From Pseudobdellovibrionaceae bacterium (GTDB lineage: Bacteria > Bdellovibrionota > Bdellovibrionia > Bdellovibrionales > JAMPXM01), in NCBI GenBank assembly GCA_947462815.1, contig CANHQR010000029.1:1-41941 (forward strand): a stretch of 41,941 bases of DNA. The letters are read 5' to 3'. Both the position numbers and the translations under genes were made by a program. The notes below the pieces were generated by a model. The model saw only the letters and a program-made list of their open reading frames with translations. It had not been told where the DNA came from and searched no databases. Positions 5,798-10,772 of this stretch are shown here, piece after piece (within the stretch, counting starts at the first letter, position 1; every line of letters starts with the position of its first letter).

Positions 5798-5863
5798 CGT
5801 AAGGCCGATCGCAATGTGTCGACCTGATCCAAAGACCTGATCTGATAGGTCGAGAGCCTTACG
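5798..5863. terminator. nested inverted repeat between convergent genes
   Basis: CGTAAGGC (5798-5805) pairs with GCCTTACG (5856-5863), and inside it TCGACCT (5819-5825) pairs with AGGTCGA (5847-5853). The long hairpin spans the whole gap between the regulator and kinase stop codons and includes the kinase stop. It has no T tract, so it is at best a bidirectional or factor-assisted terminator. Confidence 0.4.
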
Positions 5864-7112
5864 ACTCGATCTGTCGATCAGGGCGCGCCAGACCGCTGCC
5901 GACCTGAAGTTCAAGATGGAAACTCGAGCCTAAACCGACGCCTTCACTTTCAGCGCGCAAGCCAGCCTTCATCTCCTCGCTGAGTCGGCTGACGATCGCG
6001 AGGCCAAGGCCTGTACCTTGTCCCGGCGACTTCGTGGTGAAAAACGGTTCAAAGAGGCGACGCTTCACTTCGGGCGTCATGCCGCAGCCCGTGTCCACGA
6101 CAGAAATCTGCAAGCGCGGTGAACCTTGGTCGCGGACTTCGCGCACGCGAATGTGAATTCGATGCGACCGAGTCGGTGGAGTGATGGCGCTATATTCGGC
6201 GCTGAGATTTCCAGTTCTTGAACCCGCGGCCCGGCGTCGTTCGTCATCAATAGCGTGGGTGGAGTTGATGATGAGATTCAATAGAATCTGCTGAAGATGC
6301 GAGGGGTCAGCTAAGGCAATGCGAGGGCCTTCTTCAAATGAAGTCGTCAACTCGATGCCCTTTCGGCGGCAAGCCTCATTCATCAAACCCACAACTTCAT
6401 TGATGACTTGATCGAGACGAACCTCTCGGAGCGCAATCTCTTGCGGCACGCGTGCAATCCTCAGCAGCGAGTCGATGAGACTCGAAATGCGGTCGATCTG
6501 CCGGACGATGGTGCTCAGTGCACTGCCGGTGAGTTGCACCACATCCTGGATGCGATTGAGATCTCGAGGGATGGAGTCCTGACTTTGCAGGGCTTCCATT
6601 AAAATTTCGGCGCGACCTCGGATCACTCCGAGCGGATTGCCGATTTCATGAGCGAGTGAAGTGGCTAACATACCGATCGAGGCCAAGCGGTCTTGGCGCA
6701 AGATCTGTCGCTCCATGGATCGGCGCTCGGTCAAATCCACAGCGATGCCCATGTAGCCAACTGTTTGCTCGCTGACTTTATATGGCGTGATGGTCAGCAG
6801 AACCGGGACGAGGCGCCCGTCCTTCGCTCGGTTGACCAGTTCGCCCTTCCAAAAGCCAACGCTGGGGTCGGTGATTTGTCTCCACATTTCTCGGTAGAAA
6901 GTTTCAGACTGTGTCTCGCTTCGCAGCAGACGTGGAGTTTCGCCAAGCGCTTCCTCTTTGTTATAACCGTAAGTCTTGCACCAAGCTGGATTGACATACG
7001 TGAGGCGCCCGCTGCGATCCGAAATCATAATCGGCTCGGAGCAATCTTCCACGCAGCGAAGAAAAACACTTTGCTCGCCGAGATCGGGACCTCGCAAGGT
7101 GTTCATCTTCAT
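5859..7112 (-). CDS. soluble PAS-domain sensor histidine kinase (NtrB-like)
   Basis: This 417-residue kinase has no membrane segment. A PAS domain (about 15-130) with its C-terminal cap is followed by a HisKA dimerisation helix with His155 in SLAHEIGNP. The HATPase domain has an N box (LNLIINSTHAI), G1 VVDTGCGMT, F box FEPFFTTK and G2 GTGLGLAI. It should sense a cytoplasmic signal and phosphorylate a partner, most likely the NtrC-type regulator at 4153-5796. The two genes are tail to tail, an uncommon arrangement for a cognate pair. The ATG at 7112 has GAGGAA 6 bases upstream, and this ribosome-binding site lies inside the tandem repeat at 7101-7206. ATG 7106 is a second possible start. Confidence 0.9.
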   Translation of the reverse strand: MKMNTLRGPDLGEQSVFLRCVEDCSEPIMISDRSGRLTYVNPAWCKTYGYNKEEALGETPRLLRSETQSETFYREMWRQITDPSVGFWKGELVNRAKDGRLVPVLLTITPYKVSEQTVGYMGIAVDLTERRSMERQILRQDRLASIGMLATSLAHEIGNPLGVIRGRAEILMEALQSQDSIPRDLNRIQDVVQLTGSALSTIVRQIDRISSLIDSLLRIARVPQEIALREVRLDQVINEVVGLMNEACRRKGIELTTSFEEGPRIALADPSHLQQILLNLIINSTHAIDDERRRAAGSRTGNLSAEYSAITPPTRSHRIHIRVREVRDQGSPRLQISVVDTGCGMTPEVKRRLFEPFFTTKSPGQGTGLGLAIVSRLSEEMKAGLRAESEGVGLGSSFHLELQVGSGLARPDRQIES

Positions 7113-7229: not shown

Positions 7230-9590
7230 TCAGGTTTTTTCGAGAACCGGTGTCTGAACCTTGCCCCCGGCAGCCCTCAATTCCTCGCGAAACGACTCCA
7301 AAGTCAGTTTGAGTCCGCTATCAAAGTTGATTTCGGGTTTCCAGCCCAGGGCCACAGCACGAGAGATATCGGGGCGACGTTGTTTCGGGTCATTCTGCGG
7401 CAGTGGTAGGCGCCGTAAGCCGGCCGTGGAACCCGTCAACTGGATCACGGCTTCCGCGACCTGGCTGACGGTGAGCTCAATCGGGTTACCGACATTCGTT
7501 GGTCGCGACTCTTCACTGCGCATCAGAGTGATCAGGCCGCGAACTAAGTCGCCAACGTAGCAAAAGCTTCGCGTTTGCGAGCCGTCACCATAGACACTGA
7601 GGGCTTGGCTCTGCAGGGCCTGCATGCAGAAGTTCGGCAAGATTCGGCCATCATCGGGACGCATCCGAGGGCCGTAAGTGTTGAAGATTCTCGCCATGCG
7701 AACTTTGGTTCCATGCTCGCGCGCATGAGCCACGCTCAACGCTTCACCATAGCGTTTGGCTTCGTCGTAGCAGGAGCGATGGCCCGTGGTATTCACGTTG
7801 CCGAAATAGCTCTCCACTTGAGGATGAACTTCGGCATCACCGTAGACCTCAGATGAGGACGCGTACAGGCAAGTGGCGCCCGTTCGAGCTGCGAAGTCCA
7901 GCAGGTGACGGTGGCCTTCGCTCGCGGTCGCCAGGATTTGCAGCGGAATTCGTGCAAAGTCGACGGGCGATGCGGGTGAGGCGAGATTGTAGATCTCATC
8001 GAAGGCGCCCCGCTCCTCGGGAAGGCCAAGGCGATCTAAACCATCGCGCAGATCGGCCCGAATAAAGCGAAAGCGCGGTTGCGCGAAGGCCGACTGAAGA
8101 TTGCTCAATCGCCCCGTGATCAAAGAGTCGATGGCGATGACCTCATGCCCCTCGTCGAGTAAACGATCGACGAGATGGCTTCCGACAAAACCCGCGCCAC
8201 CGGCGACGAGGCAACGTTTATGTTTTCGCACTTCGACGTGAGGACTCGCGTTCGCGTGAGCCTGTGAAGAGCCGGAGCCGCGCACCTGGCGGCCAATGCA
8301 GAAGTACTGAAAGCCAGCTTGAGTGGCCTTCAGGGGATCCAAAACGTTGCGACCATCAAAGATCACCGGATGCCGCATGCTCGCATGGAGCTCTTTCCAA
8401 GCCGGAGTTCGAAACTCGTTCCACTCGGTCACGATCATCAACGCATCAGCACCTTGCACGGCTTCTTGGGCCGAGGTCACCGTCGTGAACGGGCGAGTGA
8501 AAGCTTTGGTGGCCGTTTCGCGAGCGACCGGATCATAAGCGATCACTTCGGCGCCGGCGTCGACGAGCTTTTCGATCAGATAAAGGGCGGGCGCCTCGCG
8601 GACATCGTCCGTTTGAGGCTTGAAGGCGAGTCCCCACATGGCGATCCGTCGACCTCGCAAGGTTTCTCCTCGCGAGGCAAAGTAGTCGCGCACGCGTTCA
8701 AACAAAATGAGCTTTTGGCGGTCATTCACTTGGTCGGCCGCGTCCACGACTTGCATCGGCACGCCGACGGCTCGTCCGCTATGCACCAAAGCTTTCACGT
8801 CCTTCGGGAAACATGAACCGCCGAAGCCAACGCCGGGATGAAAAAAAGCGGGATTGATTCGACGATCAGAAGTGAAACCGCGGCGGACGTCATTGATATC
8901 GGCACCCCACCGGTCGGCCAGCAGGGCCAGTTCGTTGATGAAGCTGATCTTGACGCTGAGAAAGGCGTTGGCGGCATACTTGGTCATTTCCGCCGACACA
9001 TTGTCCATGATGATCAGCGGGTTACCGTTCTTCAAAAAGGGTTCGTAGAGTTCGCGCATGACGGCTTCGCCGCGACCGCCGGGCTGAACGCCAATCACGA
9101 CGCGATCGGGTCGCAGAAAGTCTTCAACGGCCACACCCTCTTTGAGAAACTCGGGATTGCTGACGACTTCGACGTCTTTTGCTCCCAGGTTCGCCAGCCG
9201 CTCTCGAACTCGAGCGGCCGTCCCCACGGGAACTGTGCTCTTAAGGACGAGAATAAAGGGTGCACTGTGAGTTTTGGCCACGGCATCCACAACGGCCAGG
9301 GTTGGGCCAAGATCTGCACTACCATCCGCCAACTCGGGTGTACCCACGGCGATGAAGGCGACCTCGGCGCCGTGCATGGCCTTTCCCAGATCCGAACTGA
9401 AGTCCAATCGAGGGCGAGCTCGCTGAAACAGATCGAGCAAGCCGGGCTCGTAGATCGGAATGCGGCCCTGGAGAAGCGCTCGGATTTTGTCTTCGTCCCG
9501 ATCGACACCTACAACTTGATGCCCGGCGTCAGCAAAGCCTACAGCTGCCACTAAGCCGACATATCCTGTTCCGATCACGACGACCTTCAC
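7230..9590 (-). CDS. bifunctional UDP-glucose 6-dehydrogenase / UDP-glucuronate decarboxylase fusion
   Basis: This 786-residue protein joins two enzymes. Residues 1-435 are a complete UDP-glucose dehydrogenase with NAD motif GTGYVG (7-12), STVPVGT (118-124) and catalytic Cys260 in [11 protein letters not shown] Ser/His/Ala linker (about 437-457) leads to a short-chain epimerase-type domain with GGAGFVG (464-470), SSSEVYGD (578-585) and Tyr608/Lys612 in RSCYDEAK. The EVHPQ...GNVN...RSCYDE pattern is typical of UDP-xylose synthase (UXS). Together they would oxidise UDP-glucose to UDP-glucuronate and decarboxylate it to UDP-xylose or its 4-keto intermediate. The GTG start at 9590 has GGAGGA at a spacing of 7. 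The two activities are normally encoded separately. I see no stop or frameshift between the domains. Confidence 0.88.
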
Positions 9591-9713
9591 GACTGGCTCC
9601 TCCGGCGGAAATGATGGGCAGCTTCGCGACGGCGATCTTTTGGCCAATCCTTCGCTGCGTTGAGAATGTTTCACCTCTTCCCGAGAGAGGGTCAAGCGAC
9701 GTAAAACCGCTTC

Positions 9714-10772
9714 ATGGCCGCGACCCCCACAAAGCTTTCGAAGCTCAAACCCGTCCTGATGACGGCGATCAAACTGCTGTTGGCAGTGGCTTTGATCGTC
9801 TGGATTCTTCGTCAGGGTGCTCTGGATCTCGACAAAGTGATGATGACGCTTTCTCGCTGGGAGTTCGCGCTGTCTCTCGGTGTGCTGAGTTTTTTGACAC
9901 TTTTGTTTAACACCTGGCGCTGGCTGATCTTGCTGCGGAGCCAGGGTTTCAACGCCAACTTCCAGCAGACCTTGAGTCTCAGCTTCATCGGTTTGTTTTT
10001 TAACTTCGCTATGCCAGGCGGAGTCGGTGGCGACGTTGTGAAGGGGTATTACCTCACGCGTGATTTTCCCGCTCAGAAAATGGCAGCGGTCGTCAGTGTT
10101 CTCATGGATCGGCTGATCGGTTTTTTTGTCATGTTATTGGCGGCGTCCATGGCGAGTCTGGTGTTTTGGGATCGTTTGAGCCATGACCCGCGTTTGCTGG
10201 GTATTGCCTTGAGCACCTTGGGGGCGACTTCCGCCTTCTTGCTCGTCTTGGTGTTCTCCCTCTCGCGCCGTTTGCAAACGCCTCTCAAGCGAGGTGTGGA
10301 TCGACTCAAAAACTTTCCTGGTTATGAAGCCTTCGCGAAAGTTTATCGCGCCCTACATGCCTATCGAAAGCACCCCAAAGTGGTCTTGCAGGCCCTCGGG
10401 CTCGCGTTGGTCAATCAGGTCTTGCTCGTCACCTTTTTTGCCTTGGTTGCGATGGCCGTCGGTGAGGGCGACTTCGATCACGCCGTATTGTGGTTTTGCA
10501 TCCCCATCGGGTTGGTCGTCCAAGCCTTGCCTCTAGCCCCTGCGGGCGTGGGTGTTGGACAAGCGGCTTTTTTCTTTCTCTTCGAAGCGGCCCTGCAGAG
10601 GCCGACACAGGTTGGTACGGTCGGGATTACGGTGATGCAGGCGCTGCAGTTTGCCCTGGGTTTGATTGGCGCTCTCATCTACTTGCGACGTGGACGAAAG
10701 ATGCCCACGGCGGCCGAGCTGGAAGCGGCCGGGCAAGCGAACGGAGAAGTGCAAGCGACCGGAGAAACATAA
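9714..10772 (+). CDS. flippase-like integral membrane protein (LPG synthase TM / UPF0104 family)
   Basis: This 352-residue protein is strongly hydrophobic with about seven or eight membrane segments. The family marks are FNTWRW near residue 65, the NFAMPGGVGGDVVKGYYL region near residues 97-115 and APAGVGVGQAAFF near the end. The family covers the membrane part of lysylphosphatidylglycerol synthases and AglD/YbhN-type proteins linked to lipid or glycan transfer. The catalytic MprF C-terminal domain is absent, so lysyl transfer is unlikely. The gene is divergent from the nucleotide-sugar fusion and ends one base before the recO start, so recO is probably co-transcribed. A role in envelope glycolipid handling is inference. 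The start codon lacks a strong ribosome-binding site. Confidence 0.75.
   Translation: MAATPTKLSKLKPVLMTAIKLLLAVALIVWILRQGALDLDKVMMTLSRWEFALSLGVLSFLTLLFNTWRWLILLRSQGFNANFQQTLSLSFIGLFFNFAMPGGVGGDVVKGYYLTRDFPAQKMAAVVSVLMDRLIGFFVMLLAASMASLVFWDRLSHDPRLLGIALSTLGATSAFLLVLVFSLSRRLQTPLKRGVDRLKNFPGYEAFAKVYRALHAYRKHPKVVLQALGLALVNQVLLVTFFALVAMAVGEGDFDHAVLWFCIPIGLVVQALPLAPAGVGVGQAAFFFLFEAALQRPTQVGTVGITVMQALQFALGLIGALIYLRRGRKMPTAAELEAAGQANGEVQATGET

Follow-up and report, generated by a model that had tools for sequence, protein, structure and literature searches.

Separate ugd and uxs genes, adjacent in many of the sampled genomes, encode the two consecutive enzymes that convert UDP-glucose to UDP-xylose, namely UDP-glucose 6-dehydrogenase (Ugd) and UDP-glucuronate decarboxylase, or UDP-xylose synthase (UXS). 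Examples in which the two often lie side by side include plasmid records of Azospirillum and Deinococcus and split relatives within the family discussed here; in each of these the enzymes are two polypeptides. Bacterial Ugd enzymes of solved structure, such as 3gg2, BceC (2y0c-e), and UgdG (4a7p), have no decarboxylase fused to them, and human UXS1 (UDP-glucuronate decarboxylase 1; 2b69, 4gll) is a separate ER/Golgi enzyme without a Ugd domain. ArnA also joins a UDP-glucuronate decarboxylase to a second domain in one chain, but that partner is a formyltransferase and the decarboxylase of ArnA releases the 4-keto product. Plant RHM (UDP-rhamnose synthase) likewise unites consecutive nucleotide-sugar enzymes in one chain, a 4,6-dehydratase and an epimerase-reductase, although both enzymes and pathway differ from those of Ugd and UXS; an origin of the RHM fusion from bacterial genes that lay next to each other has been proposed (PMC3220709).

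The window, by which is meant the whole stretch of 41,941 nucleotides analysed here, carries Ugd and UXS as one protein of 786 residues encoded by an uninterrupted frame on its minus strand (Table 1). The GTG start of this frame is preceded by a Shine-Dalgarno sequence whose predicted pairing energy of -9.5 kcal/mol compares with a background mean of -2.4, and none of the sampled background positions is as strong. The earlier note, which had described the two enzymes in one frame, was borne out by the Pfam domains of both that the open frame contains, and the stop or frameshift between residues 435 and 460 that it had named as a test was not found. With a draft assembly of 107 contigs, a false joining of two genes by assembly or sequencing deserves mention; the same uninterrupted fusion is present in five other genomes of the family, all of genus g3, at 67-70% identity, with no internal stop and with differing linker sequences, which rules out such an artefact to near certainty. 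The named records of a second collection assign the fused g3 genomes to Bdellovibrionaceae/Bdellovibrionales.

Table 1. Features of the fused ugd-uxs locus and its immediate neighbours, in window coordinates.
Feature	Position	Strand	Remarks
Fused ugd-uxs gene	7230..9590	minus	786 codons; GTG start at 9590, stop at 7232-7230
UDP-glucose 6-dehydrogenase half, residues 1-436	8283..9590	minus	nucleophile Cys260 at 8811-8813
Linker, about residues 437-457	8220..8282	minus	differs between fused relatives; disordered by prediction
UDP-glucuronate decarboxylase / UDP-xylose synthase half (extended SDR), residues 458-786	7233..8219	minus	Ser580, Glu581, Tyr608, Lys612, Arg674
Shine-Dalgarno GGAGGAG	9597..9603	minus	just 5' of GTG start
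Flippase-like membrane protein (LPG_synthase_TM, TIGR00374)	9714..10772	plus	divergent neighbour of fused gene
PAS histidine kinase	5859-7112	minus	directly downstream of fused gene

The N-terminal half has the make-up of a complete Ugd. The Pfam domains UDPG_MGDP_dh_N, central, and C follow one another in order at residues 2-419 with E-values of 4e-55, 6e-35, and 4e-36, all above the Pfam cut-offs, and the Rossmann GxGxxG, NPEFLKEG, and MTKYAAN motifs are in place. Its nearest solved structures are the bacterial enzymes 3gg2, BceC, and UgdG, which share its fold and Cys nucleophile at 44-48% identity, and bacterial UGDs also top the Foldseek matches obtained with the predicted model. The nucleophile lies in GGSCFPKD (257-264) and is kept in all aligned relatives, both fused and split. 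The fused protein is the sole match in the genome to the Ugd C-terminal domain family and is thus not a redundant, decaying copy.

The C-terminal half matches the Pfam Epimerase family at residues 461-701 (E 2e-50) and carries the GxxGxxG NAD motif. Its decarboxylase-site residues, which we take to be catalytic by analogy with ArnA and UXS1, are Ser580 and Glu581 in SSSEVYG (578-584), Tyr608 and Lys612 in CYDEAK (607-612), and Arg674 in TRSFCY; human UXS1 has the same Ser/Glu, Tyr/Lys, and Arg, and all five are kept in every aligned relative. Both active sites look intact, as the earlier note had said. Against solved SDR enzymes, human UXS1 is the closest (E 5e-91, 48% identity over 311 aligned residues), the runner-up enzyme reaching 4e-34, plant UDP-apiose/xylose synthase 1e-16, and the distantly similar ArnA about 5e-16. 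NCBIfam scores lie far under the cut-offs both for UDP-4-keto-pentose synthase (U4kpxs; PRK11908), at 82 of 294 bits, and for ArnA (PRK08125), at 64 of 777 bits, and an enzyme of either type was rejected on these scores together with the far weaker similarity. The earlier note had allowed for UDP-xylose or a 4-keto-pentose as the product; the former is what would be expected, and a free 4-keto-pentose appears unlikely because the C-terminal half resembles human UXS1 and not ArnA. Sequence alone does not decide between UDP-xylose and UDP-4-keto-pentose formation (PMC11713868). The genome holds no other close UXS, its next SDR matches being 25-31% identical save for one 39-residue stretch. In two sister species with the fusion (L009, G003:C32; L010, G006:C93), GAAGFVPS replaces GGAGFVGS, so that the third glycine of GxxGxxG is a proline. 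The other UXS catalytic residues are kept in both, and NAD binding or UXS activity there may be weakened or different.

Outside the fused group, the two genes are split but adjacent in genera g2, g4, g5, and g7 of the family and in other families of the order. Their junctions take several forms, among them TAG-ATG, TAAGCCATG, and overlapping ATGA or TGATG, and some pairs share one frame, interrupted by just one stop. Trees of Ugd, of UXS, and of the two jointly all set the six fused sequences apart from every split one with support of 100, and this single grouping argues that the fusion arose once from a ugd-uxs operon. The simplest account would place that event in the common ancestor of genera g1 and g3, where the ugd stop was lost and the linker, now 19-27 residues in the fusions as against 4-16 if the two proteins of split relatives are concatenated, was lengthened. 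The effect of the change may be small, because the stop/start junction that it replaced is already tightly spaced or overlapping in relatives. A nearly neutral origin is a serious, if not the favoured, possibility: a stop was lost between adjacent and probably co-translated genes, with neither harm nor functional gain. It agrees with our preferred reading on enzyme activity and differs on whether the joining matters. That the ancestral genes were adjacent already, several relatives having them in one frame with one stop between, and that the linker drifts freely speak for it; no reversal is seen in six genomes of two genera, which counts against it weakly, since reversal needs both a new stop and a new start.

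The short polar linker described in the earlier note lies between two domains that have been far more constrained than itself. Between orthologous fusions just 1-9 of 19-24 aligned linker residues are identical, whereas each domain is 66-89% identical, and in both domains nonsynonymous change is far below synonymous, although the ratios are rough since synonymous sites are saturated between fused orthologues. An AlphaFold2 model of the monomer, run with a 24-sequence alignment, had a mean pLDDT of 85.5 and consists of two well-folded domains whose mutual placement in the single modelled chain is without confidence (pTM 0.56). Residues 438-455 of the linker fall below a pLDDT of 50; a second low-confidence stretch, 582-602, falls within the UXS active-site region of this apo monomer model.

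The model and alignments fit a flexible tether between independently folding halves, and fixed stoichiometry with proximity would fit them better than a built channel, because the linker is unconserved and predicted disordered, the halves fold separately, and pTM is low. Channelling of UDP-glucuronate, which the earlier note had taken the fusion to suggest, is consequently not favoured. A true channelling machine, one that hands UDP-glucuronate straight from the active site of Ugd to that of UXS and keeps it out of the bulk pool, would account for consecutive pathway steps being held in one chain and for the retention of the fusion among orthologues at about 65-70% identity; set against the drifting, disordered linker and a domain arrangement that is not confidently predicted from a single chain, it is improbable, though transient contact between the halves may occur. 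UDP-xylose is a feedback inhibitor of animal UGDH. It is similarly doubtful that a bacterial lineage has come to combine channelled flux with in-cis feedback by UDP-xylose made right beside the Ugd site.

The linker is also where the two enzymes might come apart again, if UXS were made alone from an internal start as well or if the chain were cut, leaving separate working enzymes. Being disordered, the linker would probably be open to proteases, and GTG codon 454, which is in frame, immediately precedes the UXS domain. Besides this codon, the linker offers just one other in-frame start, GTG codon 436. The pairing energies are -2.5 kcal/mol at codon 454 and -1.5 at codon 436, and neither has a Shine-Dalgarno signal above background, on which ground an internal UXS start was rejected; the Met that begins UXS in split relatives is also absent from the fused ones. 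Separate enzymes of this kind are therefore an outside prospect, a little less probable than channelling.

The reading that we prefer, to which we would assign a probability of roughly 85%, is a bifunctional UDP-xylose-forming enzyme that arose when the two genes of an ancestral ugd-uxs operon became joined in frame, its halves joined by a flexible tether with no need of a dedicated channel. By analogy with the respective families, the N-terminal half would oxidize UDP-glucose to UDP-glucuronate with two NAD+ by a thioester route via Cys260. Using NAD+ that it binds tightly, the C-terminal half would then oxidize UDP-glucuronate at C4, whereupon CO2 is lost and the 4-keto intermediate is reduced to UDP-xylose. 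The tether would fix expression at 1:1 and raise the local substrate concentration. UDP-xylose probably goes into a glycan or glycolipid of the cell surface; that the conserved divergent flippase-like protein takes part in this is a guess.

The envelope use proposed in the earlier note found little in the surroundings of the gene to uphold it: no glycosyltransferase or polysaccharide cluster was recognized beside the fused gene in the window, where the flippase-like protein is the only suggestive neighbour, and nothing ties the two PMT_2-type glycosyltransferase genes elsewhere in the genome to UDP-xylose. The flippase-like gene, followed by recO, lies divergently upstream of the fused gene. 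It likewise adjoins ugd-uxs wherever the flanks of other fused genomes were read and in most of the split relatives checked, across several families. This neighbour gives the clearest hint that the genes may serve a common end, for example a xylose-bearing lipid or glycan. The PAS histidine kinase downstream is common to the window and three fused g3 genomes (L070, L071, and L020). In the window and in L070 and L071, a sigma-54 response regulator is convergent to this kinase; the split relatives read showed no such kinase beside ugd-uxs.

As both enzymes are known and no new chemistry is apparent, what looks to be new is the arrangement in one chain, and the general view of the pathway is unchanged by it. 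In the literature searched, which covered few subscription journals, no description of a natural Ugd-UXS fusion was found. The fusion offers a clean natural experiment, in which orthologous enzymes at 60-70% identity are overlapping or adjacent in sister genera and form one chain here, so that flux, UDP-glucuronate leakage, and UDP-xylose feedback could be compared directly between fused and split orthologues. It would also supply a single ready-made protein for converting UDP-glucose to UDP-xylose.

For 369 genomes that belong to the phylum but not to this branch, the matches listed included no independent fusion, and none was seen in 301 and 198 sampled genomes of two other phyla, where every long in-frame match had an internal stop; 398 sampled genomes of another phylum gave no match whatever at a strict cut-off and are weak evidence. 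One stop-free Ugd match (G146:C2:276282-277592) lies in a 703-codon open frame, about 260 longer than Ugd, and is possibly Ugd with another domain or a mere chance open extension. The matches listed from plasmids, phages, and viral contigs were all to genes that were separate or distant, and spread of the fusion by such elements was discounted on that basis. The Maribacter phages Colly_1 and Molly_1-5 carry, at about 69.8-72.1 kb in their records, a UDP-glucose dehydrogenase gene followed directly by a nucleotide-sugar epimerase gene, a pair that is the phage-borne counterpart of the adjacent ugd-uxs arrangement.
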